Below the pieces are notes generated by a model, which had not been told where the DNA came from, did no database searches, and was given only the letters and a program-made list of their open reading frames with translations. This document shows positions 41 to 63,372 of a stretch of DNA of 64,000 nucleotides, piece by piece. Numbering within the stretch: the first letter of the stretch is position 1; each line of letters starts with the position of its first letter. The stretch spans positions 176,917 to 240,916 of the forward strand of contig NW_004457442.1 in the NCBI RefSeq assembly GCF_000313135.1. Reading direction: 5' to 3'. The DNA is from Acanthamoeba castellanii str. Neff. Lineage: Eukaryota; Discosea; Longamoebia; Acanthamoebidae. The position numbers and the translations under genes were made by a program.

Positions 41-451
41 ATGGCGTTCACTCTGCAGGGTTTTGACCTTGCCGTCCTTCCTTCCTGCGACGCGCTACGC
101 CGCAAGTTCACCGTCGCTCAGCTACGGGCAATTGCCCAAGCTTTTGGGCTCATCGATCAGGCTACCTTCCACACACGCAAGCAGCCCTACCTCCAACTCC
201 TCTGGCCGCTCATCCAGCGGGAACAGCGCCTCTACACCCCTGCTGCTTCCTCCCCACCTCTACCCCCTATTCCCTCACCCCCTTCCTCTCCGCCTCCCTC
301 CGCTGCTCTATCAATAGCGCACAGGCTGGCAGCACTCCATGCTCACTTGAAGGAGCAGCGGAAGAGGCAGAGCTGCAACAGACAAGCTGTCCTCACGCAT
401 CAGCCACCTGTCCAGAGACAGTCTGCAACTCGTTCACACTCTCATAAATAA
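41..451 (+). CDS. Hypothetical protein, weakly SAP-like N-terminus
   Basis: Open frame of 136 residues starting at ATG 41. Residues 8-58 (from LPSCDALRRKF through FTVAQLRAIAQAFGL to RKQPYLQLLW) resemble the two-helix pattern of SAP DNA-binding motifs, with a leucine-rich first helix, a G turn and a basic second helix; this is pattern recognition only. The second half is Pro/Ser-rich and low complexity, then basic. AATAAA-like sequence follows the stop (about 446-452). I do not recognise the family. It lies beside another unknown ORF (1086-1946) on the same strand, and both could belong to one lineage-specific repeat or to one spliced gene, but no phase-consistent join was found. Confidence 0.35.
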   Translation: MAFTLQGFDLAVLPSCDALRRKFTVAQLRAIAQAFGLIDQATFHTRKQPYLQLLWPLIQREQRLYTPAASSPPLPPIPSPPSSPPPSAALSIAHRLAALHAHLKEQRKRQSCNRQAVLTHQPPVQRQSATRSHSHK

Positions 452-639
452 ACTGCCAACTTGCTATCAAGTATGTAGTGTATAGGCTGTCGTAGGAGAG
501 GGAGGCGAAGACGTAGGGCGAGGCCTCGCAGCAGCCGTTGGCGAGCAAGAATCATGCTCCGGAAACGGCGGACCGAAGTTGGCCGGGGAAGATGAGGCTC
601 GTGTGACCACAAGAGTTGCACGGCCCACCTGTACCCTGC

Positions 640-1104
640 ATGACTAGTCGGGCGACAGCCTTTGGGTTGGTGAGCGCCCATCTAACTCTTCTAAAAGATG
701 GCGCGTACCAGCCACTGGGCCAGCGGATGAGTTCGGCACCACCGGACTTTGGCGCGGCGAGCGTCCAGATCGAACACGGCCGCACGAAAGCGCCCATCGC
801 GTGCGGTCACGGATAGCCCCACGCCACCGCGTACACGCTCTCCTCGTGCGCATCGTAGCTCTTGATCAGATACTCCTCCCTCCCTCTGCACCGCCCACAT
901 GTGAGCATGTCGTGTCGTGTGCGGTGGCGCGTGTAGTGTCGTGTGGTGTGGTGTGTACCAAAACTTGACGTAGCAGTCGTCACCGCCGGTGGGGATGAGG
1001 TAGAGCTTGTTCGGGTTGTAGTCCAGTGCTCGCACACCGACCTGATGTCTGTAAAAAGTCTGCAACCAACAGACACAAATAAACTGTGCTGGCCACGTTT
1101 CCAC
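640..1104 (-). pseudogene. EIPR1/TSSC1-like WD40 gene remnant
   Basis: Minus-strand frames contain VRALDYNPNKLYL, GGDDCYVKFW and then, across a GT..AG-like gap (about 953 to 880), IKSYDAHEESVYAVAWG. These match the order of WD repeats near the C-terminus of EIPR1/TSSC1, the EARP/GARP-interacting WD40 protein of endosomal retrieval. A WD repeat expected between the two pieces is missing. The obvious splice join creates a TGA, and the frame stops shortly after VAWG, continuing only in another frame. I infer a truncated, frameshifted copy. A real but unusually spliced short gene is less likely. Confidence 0.45.
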
Positions 1105-1946
1105 GGTTCCATGGTTGCTTCTCCTCCTTTTCTTCCTCTTCTCCTCCTGATCACCGCCAGTTGAAAGAACCCAACGCGTCTCTCGACTTGCTCTTTCGCT
1201 CCTGCTCCTCCCTCATCGCTCTACCCCGCATGCACAACCTTCGCGCACCACAGGAGCGGCATCGCTCCTGCATGCTCTCGGGCTTCACTGTCAGTGACGC
1301 TCGCGGCCTACCCCCTCCTCCACCGGTCCCGGAACCCCCGTCCATCCTCATTGCCGACCTCTGCCATGAGCGAGAGGTACTGGCAACCGACCTTCGAGCA
1401 GCACGCCTGCACCTCAAGCAGGCGCACGAGGCCCTCGGGCGCAGCATCGGCGCCTCAATCCTCGCCGAGATACGCCCCACCTACTCTCTCACACCACCCG
1501 ATCTTCACTTCGCCTGTGGTCAGCACTTCTTTGACACCTTCACCAAAGGCTGGACGACCTACTCTCCAGCACGCCTTCGCTGTGGATATGATTCGTACCG
1601 CCTCTGCACCTCTCTGCCGCTCTTTCTCACGCAGCTGCCGGGCTGGGATCTCAGTCGTCAGTTCTCTGACGACTGCGATAACCCAATCACCTACCGGCTG
1701 ACCGCCTCTCCAGCACATCCTATCTACGCTCTTTACTCTCCTCTGTTCGCCCGTATGTCTCTCAGCTTCCACTACCTCCCTGACCCTCTCCCTCCCCTCT
1801 TCATCCCCCGCTATCGCTCCGGTTCAACTCGCAAGCGCCTGCTTTTCTACTCTGCGCACGCTCCTCGCCCCAAGCGGCAACGGAGGCAGCAGCTCCTTCC
1901 TCCCCTCACACCCTCACCACTAGACACACTGCCCACACCACAATAA
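1086..1946 (+). CDS. Hypothetical protein, 286 residues or less
   Basis: Long open frame. The true start is uncertain: the first in-frame ATG is at 1086, but a later ATG such as 1230 may be used. The product has a Pro-rich stretch (about residues 75-85), a basic and leucine-rich middle with alternating hydrophobics, and a basic KRLLF...PKRQRRQ tail that could be a nuclear localisation signal. CAATAAAAA directly after the stop looks like a polyadenylation signal. No family recognised. It overlaps the 5' end of the degraded WD40 remnant on the other strand, which suggests insertion or rearrangement here. Confidence 0.4.
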   Translation: MLATFPRFHGCFSSFSSSSPPDHRQLKEPNASLDLLFRSCSSLIALPRMHNLRAPQERHRSCMLSGFTVSDARGLPPPPPVPEPPSILIADLCHEREVLATDLRAARLHLKQAHEALGRSIGASILAEIRPTYSLTPPDLHFACGQHFFDTFTKGWTTYSPARLRCGYDSYRLCTSLPLFLTQLPGWDLSRQFSDDCDNPITYRLTASPAHPIYALYSPLFARMSLSFHYLPDPLPPLFIPRYRSGSTRKRLLFYSAHAPRPKRQRRQQLLPPLTPSPLDTLPTPQ

Positions 1947-3896: not shown

Positions 3897-5136
3897 TCAC
3901 CTCTCCTCCGTCGAGGGAGCCGGAGAGGAAGACGGCGACGAAGAGATGACGGTCGGGTTGGCGGCAGTGGCGGGCGCGGGAGCGGCAGCGGACGAGTCCT
4001 GCTCCTTCTTGGGGCCGTCGTGGAGGCCGATGTCGCCCAGCTGCTGCTGCATCTCGGCGTACTTCTGCTGCGGGAAGGCCTGTTCGAGGGCCGACACGAC
4101 GAACGTGCGCAGGTACTTGAGCTGGTCCTTGACGAGCTGGTTCTCGGTGACGAGCACGTCGACCTTGGCCATGAGCGCGATGTTCTTGTTCGTCACCTCG
4201 GCCACCTTGTTCTCCAGGTCAGAGATGTACTGCTTCTGACGCTGTAGTGTGGAAGGAAGATAGAGATGTCAGAACACGCGGCTTCCGAAGAAAGAAGAAG
4301 GTCTTCTCTGTGCCGAACCTTACGGAAGAGCTGAGCGGCCTGCCTGTTCTTGACCAGGCGCTTCTGCCTCTTGTTGGTGGGCTCCTCGCCGCCGTAGTAG
4401 TCGTCTTCGCCCTGGTCGCCGCAGCCGCCGCTGGGCGGGGAGTCGACGTAGAGGGACTGCGACGACATGGAGAGCGAGGAGGAGGGGCGCATCGAGGCGC
4501 TGGTGGTGGGCTGGGGCGCGGGCGCCATCGGCATCAACGGGGCCTTGCCCTGCTGGGCCTGGGGCTGGGCCTGCTGCTGCTGCATGGGAAGCAGCTGCTG
4601 GACTTGGGCCTGCGCCTGCTGCTGCTGGGCCTGGGGCTGCCTGGCCTTGGCGGCAGCCTCGAGCTTCCTCTTGGCCGCCAGCTTGGGGTTCCTCCTCACG
4701 CCCGCACCCTGGCTCTGAGCCACTTGCATCAAAGGCGCCTGGGACTGCATGACTACAGTTTTTGTGTTCGGGGTAAGAATCGGTCGTCTACATTAGCCTA
4801 ACGATCATCCCCCGCTCCATCTAGAAAGCTAATTGGAAAGAAGTCGGAAAGAATTAAAATGATATGCGTACCATTGTCGCCCAAATGCTGGAGGGGGAGG
4901 CTAATGTCGATGGGGAAGTCAGGGTTGAGGAAGGGCGAGAAGAAATCCTCCGTGCCCAGACCAGCATCGAGGAACGACGTGGCCTCGAACGAATCGAGCG
5001 CGGAGAAGCCCTTGGGGGCGCCCACGCCTCGGGTCCCAGCCCCGAGCTGCTGGGGCGCGCCATACGAAAGGCCGGGGGCGGGCGAGTACGGGGCGGCGTT
5101 CATGAAATCGGCGGCAGATGGGATGTGGCGGTGCAT
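3897..5136 (-). CDS. bZIP transcription factor
   Basis: Three exons on the minus strand, 5136-4872, 4752-4319 and 4241-3897, give 347 residues. The first half is Pro/Ser/Gln-rich, with an acidic patch SPPSGGCGDQGEDDYYGGEE. The basic region NKRQKRLVKNRQAAQLFRK joins RQKQYISDL across the second intron. It is followed by heptads (L, V, I, V, V and L positions in LENKVAEV, NIALMAKV, VLVTENQL and VKDQLKYL) that form a zipper at about residues 237-280. The conserved N-x2-A-A-x2-F-R DNA-contact pattern is intact. The start is the ATG at 5136; the open frame extends upstream only from a GTG. Target genes cannot be inferred. A polyQ/Q-Ala rich stretch sits at about residues 125-160. Confidence 0.9.
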
Positions 5137-5335
5137 GATATGATATAGAGGAGGTGGCGGAGGCTGGGGCTCGCACACGGAGCTGTGTGGCTTATGAGTA
5201 GAGAAAGGAGAAGATAAGAAACATGGTCCTCGGCCTGGAAGTCATTCCCCCGCTGGCCCAGACTATCGAAATTTCGAAAACGTTTGTAGTTCTCGGCTAA
5301 GGCCCTGATTGGCGGGCGATAGCGAGTGGTGCGGG

Positions 5336-5881
5336 CTATTCCTTGATCCCACAAGAACTCGACATAGTCCAAGCCAAGTGAGTATGTGGATGCTTGGAGG
5401 TACTCGGACGAAGCTCTGGTGGGAAAATATGGTAAACTGCTCGATGCTGGTTGGCGCATTGTTGCACAACGGAGATGTGCGCCGATGGGAAGCGAATGTG
5501 CGGGCGAAAGGTTCTGGGTCGCCACCCAATGGCAAACCTCCCGTCTGCAATATCGACCACCAACAGAAGCGCCTGCTGGGATTCTCCCACGAACCCGCAC
5601 CTGGTGGTAGGGTTCACGCCTTCGCCATTGGTGGCCCATATTCTTATCGCCCGTTGCGTACATACCTCAGTTTACACACCAACCAGCAGTTCGTTGCACT
5701 CGGGGTACACCACCGGCCAGCGGCGCCCGAACACAGCTTTGATGCGGTGCTGGTGCGCTCGAGTAAGATCTCAAGTAGCCGAGTGAGGTCTGATGTTGCA
5801 GCCTCTTGTTGCTGGCCTTTAGATTCTCTGGTGGCTGTAGAGTACCACACCATCGGGATTGACCTCTTCACGATCGATCAT
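5336..5881 (-). pseudogene. Unresolved coding-like stretch
   Basis: One minus frame runs from ATG 5881 (start MIDREEVNPDGVVLYSHQ) through RIKAVFGRRWPVVYPECNELL and ALLLVVDIADGRFAIGWRPR to a stop at 5336. It is interrupted by three stops and offers no GT..AG introns that would remove all of them. Composition in the open pieces looks protein-like. I do not recognise a family. It could be a decayed gene, or a gene whose exons I have not solved; the plus-strand ORF at 5309-5956 is the alternative reading and looks less protein-like. Confidence 0.25.
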
Positions 5882-6049
5882 CACTGTCGCAGATCTGTGT
5901 CAGCGCTGGCCGGTCGAAGGTGCTGTGATTCTGGAGAGCAAGAGGGGGAGCGGTAGTAAGGCGAAAAGGACGATTGCTTGTGGACGCCTGGCCAGTGTTG
6001 CTTCTTTTGCCTGCTCTCACCTTTTTATTCTCACCCCCTGTGTTGTCAC

Positions 6050-6290
6050 TTATGACAAACCAGCTTGCTGACGCACAATGATCTGGATGGAGACAACAGT
6101 GTTTTTACGTAGCCCATCGTTCGTCACTGTTGAACCATGGCCACGCCAGGTGAAGTCGTGTGTTGCCATCAACACCTCCCCGTTGTAACAAGCACTTTGG
6201 ACCTTGCCGTGGTAGTTGCCCGCCAACACCAAATAAAGCCAATCCAAGTTTTTAGTTCCTTGTTTGAATTTCACTTCACCAACGGCCGCA
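6050..6290 (-). CDS. Unresolved minus-strand ORF, possible terminal exon
   Basis: The minus frame from about 6290 down to the stop at 6050 reads NLDWLYLVLAGNYHGKVQSA, then MATHDFTWRGHGSTVTNDG and a basic end. The balanced composition suggests real coding sequence, perhaps the last exon of a gene whose 5' part has been lost or lies under the ankyrin/F-box/Rab gene start at 6326 on the other strand. No family recognised. Together with the broken frame at 5336-5881 it may represent one decayed locus between 5.2 and 6.3 kb. Confidence 0.25.
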
Positions 6291-6325
6291 TGTGTAGGAG
6301 AGCAGCAAACAAGGAGACGCAAGTG

Positions 6326-9300
6326 ATGGAAGCGACGAGCGAGGCGAAGCTGCTTGAGGCCGTGCGGGCGGGTAATGTGCAGCACGTGCAAGAGCTGATC
6401 AAGTCGCACCCCGACGCAGTCAAAGCCGCCGACCCCCACGGCTGGTGCCCTCTTCCCCCCAGCAATCAATAAATCAATAAAAAAATAGAATCATTATAAT
6501 AATTGAAATTTGATGTTTTTTGTAATTATGAAATAAAAATTGGATTAATAAAGAAATAAAAATAAACAACAGGACGGCGTTGATGGTGGCCGTGGAGGGG
6601 CGGAACGAAGCGATGGTGAAGCTCTTGCTGGCCGCCGGTGCCGATCCGCACGGTGTGACGGAGAGCGACCGGATGAACGCCCTCCACGTACTCGCCGAAC
6701 AGGACCATCGCAACCCCGCTTGGCAAGACGTACCGCCACCCCGAACCCGCTCGCACGCACGCACATCACCGCATGCACCACCGCACACGACACGACACGC
6801 CACGCACTCAGTTGTGATGGTTCGTGCGCAACGTCAGACGAAGGGAGGAAAAGAGGGCGAGGACGCCTCGGTTGCGTATTCGCCCATCTTCGAGATGCTG
6901 GTCAAGGCCGGCGCCGATCCCAATGCAACCAACGCCATGGGCGAGGTGCGCCGCATTTGTCAGTCCTCGTGATGAGCGGCTCGAACTCACCCTGAGCGCG
7001 CTGTGTATCGTGTGCCTGGTACGTGTGTTGTCACGTGTGTCGTGGCGTGTGGTGTCACGTGTGTCGTGTTGTGTGCGAATGTGGACACAGGGGGTGCTGC
7101 ACCTGTTGTGCCTGCGTGGTCACACGGAGGCCGTGCGTTGGCTGCTTTCGCGTAAGTTGTTCAGCGACATCAACGCGACCAACGCGCACGGCGACACCGC
7201 CCTGCACTACGGTACACACCTTCTCTCCTCCGCCTCCCCCTCCCCGGCTGAGCCCGAAGAAGGACCCGTTCGCTGTCTGGCCTGACCCAAATGGAAATGG
7301 CACGGTACGGTCGGTAGCATCGAGGAAGGGCCACAGACAGATCGTAGACCTCTTGCTGGCCCACGGCGCGTCTCCCGCGCACCAAAGCGAGTTTGGAACC
7401 CCGCCCCAGGTACATGACCGACCCTCTTTGCCACCAAGCACAACGGTGGCCCTCACAACACAACACCACTCGACAGGTGGCCGGCGAGTTTCAGCAGAAG
7501 GACGTGGCGTCCCTCCTGAGCGGGCTGGCGCGCGATCAAGACGCCGTCGGCATCTGGTCTCTGCCTCCTGTACGCCCTCCTCCTCCTTGTCCTTCACTCG
7601 GGAGGCGGCAATCTCACTCGCGCGATCGGGCGCCACACACAGGAGGTCCTGGTGCACCTCCTGTCGTACCTGGGCACCGCAGAGGACCTGTGCGCCGTTT
7701 CCATGGTACGCCGTTTCCTTTCCATCGAAAGGCCTTCTTCGATCGAAGACCTGGTGCTCACCGTCACGTGACCCCACAACAACAACAACAACATCGCCGC
7801 ACGCAGGCATGCCGGGCGTTTGCGGTGGTGGGCAGGGACGAAAGCCTGTGGCGTCCGCTTGGCCACCCCTCCTGGGAACAGCACCACGCCCGCACGTACG
7901 TCATAGCACACACGCCCCACCCTTGTGTCGGCATATATTTTGTCTGAATGTGGATGGACGGCAGGGAGGAGGGCTGGAAGGGGGCCTACATGACCTGGCT
8001 CCGCGCTGCTGCCAAGCGATACAGGTACCCAAACCACCACCTGAACCCCACGAGCGCCCAACACGTCGGGTTGGGCGTTTCTAGCGCGCGACTTGACACG
8101 ACCATTGCAATGCCCGCTTTTGCGCGACACAGGAACAAGAACGCAAGTCGGTTCGTGCATGCGCCGGTGGCCCAGGAGGGTCAGCCAGCTCCGACCTACA
8201 GCTGCATCGTCAAGATCCTGCTGGCGGGCGATCAGTACGTGCAGTCGTGTGCGTGTGCGTGTGCGTGTGCGTGTGCGTGTGCTGACACGGAACGCTTTTT
8301 GTGGTGTCCAGCGGAGTGGGCAAATCGAGCCTTCTGCTGCGCTACGCGGACAACACGTTCTCCGATCAGCACATCTCCACCATCGGAGTCGACTTCAAGA
8401 TCCACATGTGCGACGTCAGCGGCGAGCTCATCAAGGTACCGCCCCCCCCCCCCAAGCTCCCGACGTCTCTTCGCTCTTCGCTCTTCATTTCCTGTCTCAC
8501 GCTCTTCCTCGTCGATGCGTCGGTCTGCAGGCCCAAATCTGGGTACGGCCTCTCCCTCTCTGTGCCATGCAAACCTGCGATTCCGCTCACTGACTTATGC
8601 GGAATGAATGGAATGTGCAGGACACGGCCGGACCCGAACGTTTCAGGACGATCACTGCGTCCTACTACCGGGGCGCCAACGCCATAGCCATCCCCTACGA
8701 CATCACCGACAGGGGGTCCTTCGAGGGCGTGTTCCGGTGGTGGGAGGAGAAGCAAAAGTGCGCCGACTCCCCTAACCTCTCGCCTGGGTGACCGCCCTTC
8801 TCACACTCACTTTGCGTGTGCGATCACAGGTACGCGCACGAAAATGCCGCGGTGATGCTGGTCGGCTGCAAGCGCGACCTCGCGGACCAGAGGGTGGTCA
8901 CCGAGGAAGAGGGACGGTACGACTCGGCCTTCGTCATCATCATCATTCCAATCATTTCTGTTAGTATCACTATCACTGTCATTCTTATGTTTGCGTGCGC
9001 GGGCTACTCATCAAAACGCGCACGACGCACGACGCACACACGACCGACAGGCTCAGGGCGGCGGAGCTGGGCGTGCTGTTCGCCGAATGCTCGGCCAAGA
9101 CGGGCGAGGGCGTGCGAAATGCGTTCGACCTGCTGGTGGAGCACGTCGCCGGCGGCTGGCGCACCGTGGGCGGAATGGAGACGCCCGCCTACGTCCCCGC
9201 CGAGGCCACGTTCGCCCTCTACTGCGGTCCCGCCGGCGCCGGCGCCGACGCCAGTCCGCTCCAGAAGGCCAAGAAGGAGGCCAAGTGCTGTCTTCAGTAG
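6326..9300 (+). CDS. Ankyrin / F-box / Rab-type GTPase fusion protein
   Basis: Fifteen exons with continuous phase: 6326-6444, 6573-6729, 6838-6945, 7091-7211, 7318-7409, 7477-7569, 7643-7705, 7807-7895, 7965-8024, 8133-8234, 8312-8435, 8531-8542, 8621-8757, 8830-8916 and 9051-9300. Predicted product 537 residues. Residues 1-200 hold ankyrin repeats ([55 protein letters not shown]). Residues 231-300 hold an F-box ([23 protein letters not shown]). Residues 315-537 hold a Rab1/8-like G domain with GDHGVGKSS (P-loop), [24 protein letters not shown] and ECSAK, ending in CCLQ, a prenylation box. The catalytic Gln of DTAGQ is Pro (residue 385) and the NKxD Asn is Cys (439), so hydrolysis and nucleotide binding may be altered. 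I infer a membrane-anchored SCF adaptor or a pseudo-GTPase. Two separate adjacent genes are possible, but the exon 9/10 phase joins them. Confidence 0.8.
8531..8542 (+). other. 12-nt micro-exon in the Rab domain
   Basis: GCCCAAATCTGG (A-Q-I-W) lies between a TGCAG acceptor and a GTACG donor and is needed to restore KAQIWDTAG, the invariant switch II strand of Rab proteins. It is phase 0 on both sides. Confidence 0.75.
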
Positions 9301-31600: not shown

Positions 31601-33060
31601 GTTGTTGGTGTTGTGTAGTGCATGCAGCACCTGAGGTTTGTTACAGCACCCTGCATATGGCACATTGGGCTGACTGGGCGAACCTCTTGATGTACCTTTT
31701 GAACCTCCATGACAAGTGCTCACTCCAACCCATCTCAAAAGTTTTATTGCATACACATACATGACAACAAAAACTGTAAAACTGGATGCTTACTCTATCA
31801 CATACACATACACAATGTCTACACATTTGAACTACCATTTCTTTGTTTATCACAGACATGTTGGCACAAAGTATAATCTGACTCTACCTTGTTTTGTGTC
31901 AGTGCTACTTGGAACAACCTCAAAATGCACCTTGCTTTTGCTTTCACCCCCTCCATCAATTCCATAATCAGTGGCCAACATGGTGCCCTAACTTCCAGTT
32001 CATGTACAACCTCCCACCATATTCAGTCAGTTGCACTCACAGACAGAACTTCATTCTTCACAGTTGTGCTGAATTAGAGCACTATTCCTGAAGTTAAAAT
32101 TCCACTCCATTTCATGCTGCTAAATTCACTTTTAACTCCACAAATTCCAAGTCTTTATGAAATCATTTTCATCTCAAGTCTCTCAATATCACTTATATGC
32201 AGCAGTCTAGCATGTCAAAATCACACATGCAGATCCAAATCTTCCAAACTGCCCTATAAATCAAAAATGTCAAATCTCACACAATTTTAGCACAACAAAA
32301 ATTCCACAGTCATTTGTGACCTCTCATTTCAAATGACCACAAGTTCTATTGCCTTTCCATCATGTTGCATCTTGTACTCAGACTGGAGTTTTATTGGCTC
32401 TTTCCCTGTGTATGAGCTTCCAGACATCTCCATTAACACCTTCATGGCACCAAATGCCATGTGGGTGACATGCTGGTCCTGACAGAGGTGGTCAGTGTAG
32501 CAGGATGCCATGGTGTGGGTGCAGATGATGTATTGCTCCTACCATTTATATAGGCCTATACTGACAAACAAAATCACTTTTCAAAATTACAACCTCTTAT
32601 TTCAAATGAGCACAAGTTCTGTTTGAGTCATCAGCACCATCACCTCAACCAGCACCTGACATTGGTCTTCATCATCTATGTTATTTTATACTTGTTGCCT
32701 GCCAGTCAACTGGGACTGGTTCTTCATCCCATGACTTGTTGTCCTCTTCATGGTTGAGGCTGTAGGGAACATAAAGGCAGAATAACATAATCACAGGGTC
32801 CTTCCAGAATACTATTGAAAAGGCCACAGCAAAATTTGCCTTGCCAAGGCCTCAAAAGGCATATCCCAGACATCAACCTCCCTCTTTGGAATGGAGAGGC
32901 TGGCCAAGTTGGACAGCCAGCTCCCAGACGTCCTGATGGATCTTTGCAAGCTGCAGCAGTGTGCCCCCTTGTTGGACTGCTTGTGGAGATCCTTGCGCAC
33001 AATAGCAACTCACCTGGATATGCCCCTTTAGTAGTCACTCTGGTCCTCCACTTATGAATA
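31601..33060. other. Right non-coding arm of the element
   Basis: AT-rich, CpG-poor sequence without a convincing gene. It contains two 20-bp motif copies (31746, 31797), two direct copies of the subterminal repeat (32319-32347 and 32566-32618) and the 12-bp palindrome TATAGGCCTATA at about 32549. Confidence 0.6.
32566..32618 (+). repeat. Right subterminal repeat of the element
   Basis: Inverted counterpart of 24277-24331 at the other end of the CpG-poor region, with a partial direct copy 220 bp further inside at 32319-32347. Confidence 0.7.
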
Positions 33061-33091
33061 TGGCCATACTGCCCTACAGTTGGAGGTTGAT

Positions 33092-33188
33092 GGATACGAC
33101 TTCCCATCCGAACAGCGAAGTTAAGCTGCGCCAGGCGGTGTTAGTACTGGGGTGGGCGACCACCCGGGAATCCCCCGTGCCGTATCCT
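33092..33188 (+). rRNA. 5S rRNA pseudogene, 5' third rearranged
   Basis: From CTTCCCATCCGAACAGCG (33100) to the terminal GCCGTATCC the sequence is nearly identical to the intact 5S gene at 57801-57919, including the T-run after it. The 5' end differs: GGATACG A is joined directly to CTTCCC, deleting about 22 nt. A detached GGCCATACTGC block, which is normally internal, sits upstream at 33062-33072. The transcript could not fold normally at helix I/II. The break coincides with the right edge of the CpG-poor element. Confidence 0.85.
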
Positions 33189-57800: not shown

Positions 57801-57919
57801 GGATACGGCCATACTGCGCAGAAAGCACCGCTTCCCATCCGAACAGCGAAGTTAAGCTGCGCCAGGCGGTGTTAGTACTGGGGTGGCCGACCACCCGGGA
57901 ATCCCCCGTGCCGTATCCT
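57801..57919 (+). rRNA. 5S ribosomal RNA, intact
   Basis: 119 nt from GGATACGGCCATACTGCG to GTGCCGTATCC. The ends are complementary (helix I), the internal control region AGCGAAGTTAAGCTGCGCCA is present and a T-run for RNA polymerase III termination follows at 57919-57922. The sequence matches Acanthamoeba 5S as I remember it. It is a solitary gene between two protein genes, not part of a visible tandem array. Confidence 0.95.
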
Positions 57920-58203: not shown

Positions 58204-58824
58204 TCAGTAAATGACCTGAGGCTCGATCATGAAGCACACGAGGTTCTCGATCCAGTCGATGTAGCCCGCCTCGTTGAACTTGCGCACCACCACAAGTTCG
58301 TTCTGCGAGTTGGGCACGCGGTAAAACGACTGGTGGCGCGTGAGCGTGTTGTCGGCCTTGCGCATGTAAGGCAGGTCGCGGTGCACAAAGCGCATGTTGC
58401 GCCCGAAGGCGATCGACTGGGTGATGTTGCCGTCGTCCTCGGGCCAGTCGAACTCGAGGCAGGAGCCCTCCTCGGCGCGGCCCGGCAGCGCGTTGCCGTA
58501 CTCGCGGATGACCAGCGGCGGGAGGGTGGGTCCGAAGGCGAAGCTGGTGGTGACCCAGCAGCCGCACGAGGGCTCGTAGAGCGTGGACTGGTTGAACCAG
58601 GGCAGGTCGATGGTGGCCATCACGTGGCCGGTCGACGGGTCGAAGTAGGTGAAGGAGCCCGAGCAGTTGAAAGTGCCCAGGTTGGAGGCCTTGATGGGCT
58701 CGAGCCTGGCCAGGCCTGCTGCGGTGAAGGGCAGCTCCTGGCACGTGGTGTCGAAGAAGGCACTCGCGGGCGCCGCGAGCACAAAGGCCAGGCAGCACAA
58801 CATGAGCAGCTGGAAGAGTTGCAT
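58204..58824 (-). CDS. Secreted protein of unknown function
   Basis: Single exon, 206 residues. Signal peptide MQLFQLLMLCCLAFVLAAPASA. The mature part has an N-terminal Cys (TTCQE), FNCSGSFTYFD, a CGC pair (EPSCGCW), CLEFDW and a near-terminal CFM, so two or three disulfides are likely. Aromatic-rich beta strands (TSFAFGPTLPPLVI, SFYRVPNSQNELVVVRKF) suggest a small beta-barrel or lipocalin-like fold, which is speculative. Family not recognised. Confidence 0.75.
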   Translation of the reverse strand: MQLFQLLMLCCLAFVLAAPASAFFDTTCQELPFTAAGLARLEPIKASNLGTFNCSGSFTYFDPSTGHVMATIDLPWFNQSTLYEPSCGCWVTTSFAFGPTLPPLVIREYGNALPGRAEEGSCLEFDWPEDDGNITQSIAFGRNMRFVHRDLPYMRKADNTLTRHQSFYRVPNSQNELVVVRKFNEAGYIDWIENLVCFMIEPQVIY

Positions 58825-59177: not shown

Positions 59178-62100
59178 CTAGAGGAGCAGGTAGTCCTTGT
59201 CGCTGTTGCGGAGGGTCTGGAAGTCGAGGCCGTTGAAGGCCGCCAGGTACTTGAGCCTCTGGCGCAGCTGATCGCCCAGGAAGCACTTGAGGATGTTGTT
59301 GGCCAGTTCGGTCTGGTGGCGCGACAGAGTGCGCTTCGAGCCCACGCTCCTGTTCTTGATGATGCCAAAGTAGGCGGGGTCCAGGTAGTCGATGCCATAG
59401 ATGAGCCTGAGATAGTCCCTGCCGCGCACCTTGACCATCGGCAGAACGGGCTTGCCAGTCGCATCCCACTGCACCAGCGACGGTGCGATCTTGACCACCC
59501 ATCCTACACAGCACAACAGATTCAGCTTCGTGTCGCGTGTGCGTGCATGCGCGTGCGGTGGTGCGTGTGCGGTGGTGTGTGGGTCTCACCTTCCCCGCCG
59601 TTAAGGCAGTAGTCTTCCCAAGCCTTGATGGCTTCCTGCTTGCTCTCCTGCGAGTCGAGGTCGATGTAGCGGTACTCGACGGGCTTCAGGTGCTCAGTGC
59701 TCAGTCTGTTGATCAGCTTGTACCGCTCCGTGTCCTGCAGCAGCGCCCCCCCCCCAGCCGACCACACCGGCCGCTTTGTGCGTCAGTCACCCACCTCGAA
59801 GTGCACCTCTTATGCAGGGTTGAAGAAGCCACCAACGCACCGAGAGATAGTGGCCCAGGTACTGCGGCGTGAACGCGGCTCTCTTGGGGTCGGTCCCGTT
59901 GTAGCTCTTCCCCGCTGCCAGCACCTGAAAGACTCTGAACTCGGGCGGCGTGTCCTGGGTGAAGTCCGACAGAGCATCGAGGAACCGCCTGAGCGGATCA
60001 CCCGGAGGGCAGGTGAGCAGGCGCCCATCAAAAAGTGGGGGGAAGGAGAAGAGGTACTTGGCGTTGGCGTATTCGTGGGAGTCCTCGCCATGGACAAACT
60101 TACGGGCGGCCAACGCGCACTCGCCGGGCGCTTGGAACTGGCCTCGCACGAGGGTCGTTGCCTTCAGCACCCACGGCAGGACCTGGGCAAGTGCGACCAC
60201 CGGGTTGAGGCTACAATCCTCCTGCAGCATCGAGACACTCATTTGCGCGGTGTGTGTACCTCTCCGTCGAGGATGACAAAGTCGAAGCCCTCCCTCTCCA
60301 TCGCTGCGGAGAGTTCCGAGTGCCACTCCCACGGAATCGTGCTGGCGTCGTCAAAGAACGGCGCTCCTGAGCAACGAGTATGAGTGATACAATACAACAA
60401 TATCAACAAAGTGGTTACGGACCTGATCTCGAAATGACGGAGATGAGGGGCAAGTCGCCGGGGCACACGCTCGGGTGCCGGAAGGCGAGGACGTGGCCCC
60501 GCGATCCCATGTACTTGTTCTCCGCCACCAGGCGCGTGATGCCTACCCCAGATTCGTCAAGATTAGTCAACGTTGCTATCTCTTCGATGGAAAAGTGGGG
60601 GGGTGGAGGGGGTACCGAAGGTCTGGTAGTAGTCGAACGCCGACTGGGGGTGCTCCAGGTAGTCGGGCGCGGCAGAGGAGTGCATCACGGGCGCGATGGT
60701 GGGCGCCACGTAGAAGGGCACCTCGGAATTCTCCAGCAGCGGCCGCGCAGTGTATCCCTCCTGTGTAGCCACACATTCCAAGAATGAATGGAATGCGTAC
60801 AATGCAAACCACACAATACTGTTGAGGGCCAAAGAGATGGGGCCGCACGATGAGAATCTTAGCTTCGACGTAGGTCTGGGTCTCGGGCATGTAGAGAGGC
60901 TCCACCATTCCCAGCAAGTCCCTGATGGGATCCACCCACCAATTTATGGGTTATTAACCGGTGGGTCCTTGCGTGTGTGAAGCCAACGTACTTGAGAATG
61001 ACGTGGGCCTGCGGAGTGGCCAGCGGAGGCTCATCCTTGTTGGTCAGCTCGGCCGTCACGATGAAGCTGGCCTGTTCGGGCTTGCCTGATTTCACAGAGT
61101 TCAGTCGATGCGCGGCTCAGCTGGCTGAATGGAGAGGAGGGATCGTTGTGGTGGTTGGTTGGGTGGGGCGCACCTGGCTCCAGGTCCTGCTCGGCGATGG
61201 CGTAGCCGGCTCGGGTGAGAGGGTCCAAGATCTCGGCCCTCCACTGCTGCTTGTTGTACTCGATGCGGTGGTCGTCATGGCGGAAGCCCCCCGGCGCCAG
61301 GCCCGGAATGTTCACATTGTAGTCGATGTTGGGCGTGGTGATGATCTATCTCGACATCTTGTAAGCAACAAGGGATTGTAGAGTATGCCGTGTGTCGTGT
61401 GTCGTGTGTCGTGTGTCGTGTGTCGTGTGTCGTGTGTCGTGTGTCGTGTGTCGTGTGTCGTGTGTCCCATGTTTGTCGTGTGTCGTGTGCAGATCTTGTT
61501 TTGAGGTTTGGCGCGCACCAAGCGCGTAGGACGGATGAGCAGAGCTATGAGGTCGATCACGCGCTTGCGGTGCGGCTCCTCCATGTGCTCGATCACCTCG
61601 GTGAACACCAGGGTGTCGGGACGTAGCTTCACCTGGTGCTTGTTGTCGCCTACAAAGCCGTCATTATCACAACCGCAAGAGTGCAGTCGTAGATGGAGAG
61701 TTCGTGGTGCCGTACCAATGGGCGGGTAGAGCAGATTGCAGAGCACGGTCTGGATGGCCCGGTTCTTGCGGAACACCCGCCAGCTGAACACAGTCGCGTT
61801 GGCATCGCACGACACGATCGTGGCCTTGGGCAGCGCGTAGTGCATCTTCTCAGACAACTGGCCCTGGGCGCATCCATAGTCTGTTCTCCCAATTCAGCGG
61901 CGTCACAATTCATGTTTGTGTGCGGTTGTGCGTGTGTGCGGGCGACGGTTGTACCAACGATGTAGGGTGTGTCGCTACGGCCGTAGATGGAATGGAGCCA
62001 GCCGAGAATGAAAGCGTGACGCTTGTCGTGCAGGCGCATCTCGGCCGCCTCCCGCTCCTGCACCTCCTTCGGCAGCCTCTTGTTCTTCCTCTTTAGCGCA

Positions 62101-63372
62101 GCTTGCTTGGCCTCGACCACACCCACTTCGGGCTCCGCCTCCTCCTCACCATCCTCATCCTCGATGTCCTCATCGACCACCTCATCCACCGCTTCTTCAT
62201 CCCCCTCCTTCTCTGCTCTCTTCTCCTTCTTCTCCTCCTTTGGCTCTGCCTTCGCGTCAGCAGTGTCGAGCACCGCTTTCTTCCCCTTCTTGTCCTGCCT
62301 GGCAGTGTTCGGCTTCTTGTCAGCGCCGCCTTGCTTGCCGTACTCGGCCAAGATCAGGCGACGCATCGTTCCGCTCAGCGAGTGAGACCAATCCTTGGCA
62401 TAGTCCTTCACCGCCTGGTACATTTGTCGTGTGTCGTGTCGTGTCGTGTGTGTCGTGTTAAATCTCATAATGAAGATCGTAGTGGCAAATTCTGATGGGT
62501 CGAACGAACCTCCTTGCGCGCTGCGTGCTGGTAGTTGACATCCATGCGGCGAGTGAGCTGATAGCTGGCCACGTAGACCTTCTGGATGAACTCTGCCACC
62601 TTCATGTTCTCCGCCTCCATCACGTACATCCTGCGTTGTGCGACCGCACACGCACATACGACATACGACACACGACAGTGCACATACACCAGTGAGTTGA
62701 AAGGAAAAGCTACCCACCAGGCCGTCGAGGTCGTACCGCTCTCCGATGCAGGCCTGGTGCGGGCCGGAGAAGTGCGCCCTCGCCCCGGGCAGCTCGGCGA
62801 GCGGGTAGACCTTGCTGAAGCCCAGCTCGCGCAGCACGCCGCGCAGGCGAGCGACGGTCACGCGCGCCCACGGCCCGAGCACCGCACGCACGCGCAGCGG
62901 GGTGTCCTTGACACGGTCGGCCTCCGGCGGGAACTTGGATTGGAGCACGGACTTGAACACGTCCTTGAGCCCGAGCAGCGTGAAGGGGCTCACGCACGAG
63001 AGCTGCGACATGACGTAGCTCCCGATGCTCTCCTTCTTGATGAGCTGCATGAACTGCACCGGGTCCGTGCGCACCTTGACGGCGTAGGACACCATCAAGG
63101 TCGTTCCTTCTTCGCCGGCGGAGCCCAGAATCACGGCATCAGTCCCGCTGTAGGCAGCACACGTGCAGTGTGTTACCGGAAGGTGTTCTTCTACAGCAAG
63201 AAGATCTTATTTAGTTCTTTAAAAAAAAAGTAAAGTAATACCTCTTAAGCCACTGGCCTTCGACGGAACGGCCACAGCGCAGTTGGTTCGCGTAGGTGCT
63301 CGCTGGATTTTTGGAAAGGAGCCACCCCAGGTCACCTACCTCCACACCATCCACCGCCAGTTCAAAGTACAT
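59178..63372 (-). CDS. Hen1 RNA methyltransferase / Pnkp-type RNA ligase fusion
   Basis: Fifteen phase-consistent exons: 63372-63242, 63147-62737, 62630-62510, 62414-61955, 61880-61716, 61649-61519, 61345-61174, 61085-60992, 60921-60849, 60760-60616, 60542-60423, 60366-60260, 60182-59841, 59734-59590 and 59503-59178. Product 980 residues. Residues 1-235 are like the bacterial Hen1 N-domain (VGDLGWLLSKNP). An acidic/KEKE insert follows (about 250-330). The 2'-O-methyltransferase has VDYGCAQGQ (374-382), FTEVIEH (445-451) and FRHDDHRIE (494-502), the metal-binding Glu/His set. From about 590 comes the bacterial Pnkp ligase domain: YVAPTIAP, DYLEHPQSAFDYY, NKYMGSR (Lys 644, nucleophile), ILDGEVLPW, GGEGWVVKI and KVRGRDYLRLIYG (897-909). 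Pnkp kinase and phosphatase domains are absent. Inferred role: mark and reseal broken RNA 3' ends. Confidence 0.88.
61387..61465. repeat. (TGTCGTG)n tract in Hen1/ligase intron
   Basis: Near-perfect 8-bp GTGTCGTG units fill the intron that splits the methyltransferase domain; a related tract lies in another intron at 62427-62458. Confidence 0.8.

Follow-up and report, generated by a model that had tools for sequence, protein, structure and literature searches.

A spliced gene of Acanthamoeba castellanii joins a bacterial-type Hen1 to a Pnkp-type RNA ligase in one predicted protein

The window analysed here is a 64,000-nucleotide stretch of the genome of Acanthamoeba castellanii str. Neff (assembly GCF_000313135.1, contig NW_004457442.1, positions 176,917 to 240,916), and it contains, on the minus strand, a spliced gene that joins a bacterial-type Hen1 to an RNA ligase of the Pnkp type (Table 1). 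The initial gene model relied solely on splice sites and comprised 15 exons and 996 amino acids. It was later corrected with P0001, an intronless database protein of 896 amino acids (11 member sequences, 4459-nt contig) that is identical to residues 62-957 of the final model at 896 of 896 positions. P0001 set the end of exon 9 at 60849 and placed an intron at 60057-59989 inside the stretch 60182-59841; all 15 introns of the corrected gene are GT-AG. An earlier interpretation of the letters, hereafter the sequence-only reading, had joined fifteen exons in phase into 980 residues: the single in-phase frame on the minus strand stands, with 16 exons and 957 residues instead. As P0001 has no introns, it presumably represents an assembled transcript or otherwise comes from RNA reads. 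Exon 1 and the start codon lie outside its coverage. Both are backed by the homologous starts of other fused proteins and by P0016, a Joint Genome Institute metagenome fragment that starts MYFELAVEG and is 67% identical over the match (13% of the query). Another fragment, P0019, is 54% identical and corresponds by eye to exons 4-5; the two look like the same gene from other amoebae. Much of intron 6 is occupied by a tandem repeat of the 7-base unit CGTGTGT (14.9 copies, 61389-61489).

Transcripts ending between 61085 and 60760 had been named as the sign of two separate genes. P0001 continues straight across this region, through the junctions of exons 8-10, and covers both halves of the protein; the amoeba protein is therefore one chain, with activator and ligase in a single frame as the sequence-only reading proposed, and two separate genes were ruled out.

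Domain membership was established by profile searches. Pfam PNKP_ligase matched in two stretches at 7.6e-51 (173.9 bits, cut-off 28.2), and, in the numbering of the 996-residue model, NCBIfam bacter_Hen1 (TIGR04074) matched residues 332-527 at 6.7e-23 and bacter_Pnkp residues 618-964 at 1.6e-44. Both NCBIfam scores are far under the equivalog cut-offs (80.9 of 340 bits and 152.3 of 750 bits, respectively); chance similarity to the Hen1 and Pnkp models is excluded. The ligase motifs, numbered on the 957-residue protein, are NKYMGSR (Lys644), LDGEVLPW (from 707), GGEGWVVK (847) and KVRGRDYLRLIYG (874), and those of the methyltransferase are DYGCAQG (375), EVIEH (447) and RHDDH (495). Where the amoeba protein has KYMGSR, the aligned Pnkp ligase of C. 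thermocellum has KHMGSR, and the motif I lysine is kept in all 27 ligase rows of the alignment. Likewise, both glutamates and the histidine of EVIEH and the last histidine of RHDDH are kept in all 27 Hen1 rows. The single reading frame with its conserved key catalytic residues bears out the motifs named by the sequence-only reading. A Pfam scan of the 996-residue model found no kinase or phosphatase, and the earlier description as a fused RNA repair system was therefore an overstatement: the chain is the ligase-plus-marking half. The T4 Rnl1 family RNA_lig_T4_1 (PF09511) was absent from the Pfam matches of the amoeba protein at E 0.001, and its ligase is much nearer the Pnkp ligase than Rnl (7.9e-29 versus 3e-7).

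The best fold match of the amoeba protein is bacterial Hen1 and the Pnkp ligase with its insertion module. The exon 4 linker is modelled mostly with a predicted local distance difference test score (pLDDT) under 50; the N-domain and the methyltransferase are spaced by 121 residues, whereas this gap measures 52-58 in the six fused relatives and 35-67 across 20 Hen1 rows. In the alignment A4, 20 Hen1-only rows stray partly into ligase columns, which may have slightly harmed the structure model.

Table 1. Features of the fused gene and its surroundings (window coordinates)
Feature	Position	Strand	Remark
Whole gene, ATG to stop, 16 exons, 957 amino acids	59178..63372	-	one open frame
Exons 1-8	63372-63242, 63147-62737, 62630-62510, 62414-61955, 61880-61716, 61649-61519, 61345-61174, 61085-60992	-	
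Exons 9-16	60921-60849, 60760-60616, 60542-60423, 60366-60260, 60182-60058, 59988-59841, 59734-59590, 59503-59178	-	
Hen1 N-terminal (ligase-activating) domain, ~residues 1-249, exons 1-4	62331..63372	-	
Lys/Glu/Asp-rich linker in exon 4, ~residues 252-345	62043..62324	-	longer than in any compared relative
Hen1 2'-O-methyltransferase domain, ~residues 355-531, exons 4-7	61174..62015	-	
Stretch between methyltransferase and ligase, exons 8-9	60849..61085	-	exon 9 end set by P0001
Pnkp-type RNA ligase domain, residues 587-957, exons 10-16	59178..60760	-	
Motif I lysine codon (K644 in KYMGSR)	60514..60516	-	predicted AMP acceptor
Short gene	58205-58824	-	signal-peptide-like start; 353 bases below the stop of the fused gene
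5S rRNA match	57801-57919	+	107 bits, over gathering score; ~1.26 kb below the stop of the fused gene
Weaker 5S rRNA match	33056-33188	+	56.9 bits, also over gathering score

Full-length fused relatives were found on two large viral contigs, in one metagenome-assembled genome (MAG) and on three unplaced contigs, all with the same three-domain order in one open frame of 833-907 amino acids. The viral ones are L007 (870 amino acids, 77.9-kb IMG/VR contig) and L008 (833 amino acids, 223.9-kb IMG/VR contig; the L009 protein is identical to it), and the unplaced ones P0002, P0003 and P0005 (907, 837 and 864 amino acids). The last, L048 (848 amino acids), comes from a MAG of Candidatus Falkowbacteria, a lineage of the candidate phyla radiation (CPR), with the host as labelled by binning. 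By its predicted genes, the L048 neighbourhood is an RNA-repair cluster beside a mobility gene: RtcB (5684-7126, minus strand) and archease (7255-7665, minus strand) accompany a serine recombinase (245-1810, plus strand). Among the bacterial loci, taken as the best 80 of 533 confirmed and hence no census, L048 is the one fused case, 78 have separate frames and one (L100) shows the ligase alone. In the viral record L010, Hen1 (1349-2707), a kinase-phosphatase without ligase (3965-5338) and a separate ligase (7929-9020) are distinct genes.

The record behind L008 (G002) matches a baseplate wedge (2.7e-36), a tail sheath (2.2e-12) and a terminase (2.2e-6), which identifies it as a contractile-tailed phage and rules out that L008 is carried by a giant virus of eukaryotes. 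It has 10 predicted tRNA genes on one piece, and some 3 kb upstream of its fused gene lies one that resembles a polynucleotide kinase; this kinase gene had no match in the amoeba genome (G000), G001 or G004, and the HD domain that it seemed at first to contain was not confirmed by Pfam. The record of L007, which is a probable phage, showed only UvsX, clamp loader, anaerobic ribonucleotide reductase, an RNA ligase of the T4 type and a terminase match that is weak (2.7e-5). When the viral records were searched with the Pfam families Terminase_6N and Phage_sheath_1, 0 of 9 and 0 of 6 passed the cut-off; each search gave a single weak match, one in G005 and one in G004. Ten proteins of these records, scanned against Pfam, included no structural family. 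No relative was returned by a scan of genome contigs with the L008 protein or by a scan of viral sequences with P0002, and INPHARED yielded only a weak partial match to the L008 protein, in XacN1 (16% covered, 29.8%). At locus L134, the phage record contains an 800-amino-acid frame (4863-7262, minus strand) with an adenylosuccinate-synthetase-like start and, by eye, an apparent insert, near 10 predicted tRNA genes.

Trees were built with the 957-residue model instead of P0001, dropping pieces of up to 250 (ligase) or 130 (methyltransferase) residues and omitting the repeat viral loci L009, L011, L014, L026, L027, L038, L039, L040, L043, L045 and L046. For the careful trees the non-fused bacterial loci were hand-picked, 26 of 79 for the 33-row ligase tree and 17 for the 24-row tree of joined Hen1 and ligase; the 42-row methyltransferase tree used 26 of these loci, to which L010 and three more viral rows were added along with five database proteins. 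The seven fused rows lie on one side of a branch in the 92-row ligase tree (SH-like approximate likelihood ratio test, SH-aLRT, 99), form one clade in the 33-row ligase tree (7/7, support 100/100) and in the methyltransferase tree (7/7, 99/94), and stand together in the joined tree (7/7, 100/100). In both catalytic-domain trees this clade is apart from ordinary Hen1 and Pnkp genes, and the methyltransferase clade excludes the plant HEN1 P0012, the sole eukaryotic HEN1 row. The per-domain phylogenies suggested by the sequence-only reading thus agree and, because both catalytic halves tell the same story, the seven proteins would most simply go back to a single fusion event, its product then being inherited or transferred whole. 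It is very probable that the fusion is older than its arrival in the amoeba, since it is common to viral, CPR and unplaced contigs that form one clade with the amoeba gene; the earlier idea that the amoeba gene itself had fixed the Hen1-ligase contact covalently was given up for the same reason. The amoeba protein stands with three phage-like rows in the ligase tree (97/87). Its grouping with P0002 was weakly rejected in the joined tree (approximately unbiased test, p-AU 0.0425), and that with P0002 and P0005 was rejected in the ligase tree (p-AU 0.0114), both groups having been chosen once an earlier tree was known. We do not claim a phage as donor to the amoeba, and our claim is limited to the fusion arriving ready-made. 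These data suggest that a ready-made repair tool moved between very different life forms.

The fused gene is a resident nuclear gene. A search of the assembly with P0002 as query (38.4 Mb, 250 contigs) found this one copy only, and its contig extends to at least base 1,585,607. GC content at third codon positions (GC3) is 0.85, compared with 0.93 in one neighbour gene. An actophorin exon of the same assembly is identical to PDB 1ahq, which we take to be Acanthamoeba actophorin, at 84 of 84 residues. Together with the introns, which the sequence-only reading had already held against contamination, the contig, the GC3 and the actophorin identity rule out a bacterial contaminant. The introns and the GC3 also suggest that the fusion reached the amoeba long ago.

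We consider it fairly probable, judging from domain content and conserved residues, that the gene encodes a single-chain enzyme that seals and marks RNA, with a built-in activator and with end-healing borrowed from another protein. The ligase would load adenosine monophosphate (AMP) from ATP onto Lys644, pass it to the 5'-phosphate at one end of the break in an RNA, and join this activated end to the 3'-OH on the opposite side. Ahead of this joining step, the methyltransferase of Hen1 would add a methyl group to the 2'-OH of the 3' end, so that the junction may resist re-cutting by ribonucleases that depend on a 2'-OH. The Hen1 N-domain is expected to pack on the insertion module of the ligase and keep the ligase open, and activation would take place within the chain rather than between two proteins. 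The kinase and phosphatase steps would have to be supplied by a different protein; the regular PNKP of the host is a plausible candidate, though this is a guess. Such a fusion would have a single origin, probably among bacteria or the phages that infect them, and an ancestor of Acanthamoeba may have acquired it, after which the gene gained its introns; its role might lie in countering ribotoxins or other ways in which bacteria or viruses cleave RNA in an attack.

Several observations weigh against this interpretation. Pfam Hen1_N and Hen1_L stay under the cut-off in the three fused proteins scanned, P0001, which lacks the first 61 residues, shows neither, and a HMMER profile of the fused N-domains matched no Hen1 chain in PDB. 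The structure model fits 4e6n, the complex of two chains with the N-domain on the ligase insertion module, better, which is weak evidence for an open ligase since AlphaFold2 may know 4e6n and 4e6n_A is about 30 residues longer than 3ty8. With 2.3-2.75 changes per column, the branch of the amoeba row is long, and its closest neighbour among the fused proteins is uncertain: the methyltransferase tree gives no resolution, and the joined tree places it with viral proteins at 85/53. A genome search with TIGR04075 for a bacterial-type Pnkp found only the ligase of the fused gene and one weak match (family region 183-264), and a second search, which had no positive control, was also empty. The host PNKP is matched by Pfam in its 3'-phosphatase part only.

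More tentatively, and with the balance of our judgement on the other side, the proteins could form a mobile family that seals and immunises RNA, that has crossed between tailed phages of large size, bacteria of the CPR and a eukaryote, and that serves Acanthamoeba as a working defence alongside its own PNKP. The enzyme would then mend tRNA or rRNA cut by the weapons of bacterial prey, bacterial guests or giant viruses, the mend would be marked against a second cut, and the PNKP of the cell would replace the bacterial kinase-phosphatase. If true, this would be RNA repair with memory in a eukaryote.

A housekeeping ligase, acting for example in tRNA splicing or other RNA processing rather than in repair after attack, seems unlikely. 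RtcB was unmatched in the amoeba genome in an exon-by-exon search that could miss an intron-split gene and was positive in 9 of 14 control genomes, and a bacterial-type 5'-3' ligase could take its place. However, the genome contains other candidate ligases, with five PF09511 matches (two on C152 and one each on C207, C225 and C124), three of them over the cut-off and one of these three with an internal stop, and a methyl mark at the junction would normally be unwanted in spliced tRNA. We give little credence to a small-RNA pathway in which the methyltransferase protects small RNAs and the ligase is an accessory: the fused methyltransferases form one clade without the plant HEN1 included (99/94), a separate HEN1-like match exists at C234:42160-42522 (8.0e-9), and the ligase has been retained with its activator. 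That the gene was acquired long ago and is now in decay or in non-enzymatic use is likewise improbable; the long branch and the low-complexity insert in exon 4 would fit this view, but the catalytic residues and the GT-AG borders of all 15 introns are kept, and P0001 and the similar fragments at 67% and 54% identity exist. Two genes or a contaminated assembly, for which only the earlier doubt at exons 8-9 speaks, can be set aside almost entirely given the span of P0001, the introns, the contig and the GC3.

The preferred reading, a sealing-and-marking enzyme in one chain, would allow RNA repair that leaves a protective methyl mark to be put to the test in a eukaryote, and its natural single-chain design lets the activation of a ligase by Hen1 be followed in just one protein. 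It also prompts the question of what cuts RNA in the amoeba, and the common descent of the amoeba, phage and CPR proteins suggests a trade in RNA-repair tools across an arms race of cells, phages and predators. The distribution over phage, CPR bacterium and eukaryote was unexpected. Among the titles and abstract openings listed in a literature search, none dealt with a Hen1-ligase fusion or with the amoeba gene. Burroughs and Aravind (2016) reportedly described RNA-repair systems transferred between prokaryotes and microbial eukaryotes, and may already list the amoeba protein; it is uncertain that ours is the first description of the fusion in a eukaryote.

Compared with known systems, the amoeba protein is closest in sequence and fold to bacterial Hen1 and Pnkp, with which it shares the Hen1 N-domain, the methyltransferase, the Pnkp ligase with its insertion module, and the motifs. 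The bacterial system consists of two proteins from one operon, with the ligase joined to kinase and phosphatase (PMC4411300), whereas in the amoeba Hen1 is joined to the ligase, without kinase or phosphatase and in a eukaryotic genome. The Pnkp1-Rnl-Hen1 complex of Capnocytophaga gingivalis resembles it in that the ligase is freed from the kinase-phosphatase, Rnl and Hen1 forming a pair alone, and the same order of reactions has been proposed for it (PMC4411300); that complex has three proteins, however, and the amoeba ligase is not of the Rnl type. The viral locus L010 likewise has three parts, but its phosphatase match is calcineurin-like and not T4-like. The fused methyltransferases do not group with eukaryotic HEN1/HENMT1, as represented by one plant row (P0012). 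In bacteriophage T4, Pnkp and Rnl1 similarly seal RNA cut by a host ribonuclease, yet, as far as the excerpts go, with a ligase of a different family and no methyl mark (PMC4411300, PMC3400036). Large mobile elements carry RNA repair of a similar type, namely the jumbo phage XacN1 with separate Hen1 and PNKP genes (PMC5852040) and the Borg elements with a putative Pnkp1-Rnl-Hen1 set (PMC11208441); the genes are separate there, and no fusion is mentioned in the excerpts of these papers. From its single-chain relatives, which are intronless in their records and have no long acidic/basic linker, the amoeba protein differs in both respects.
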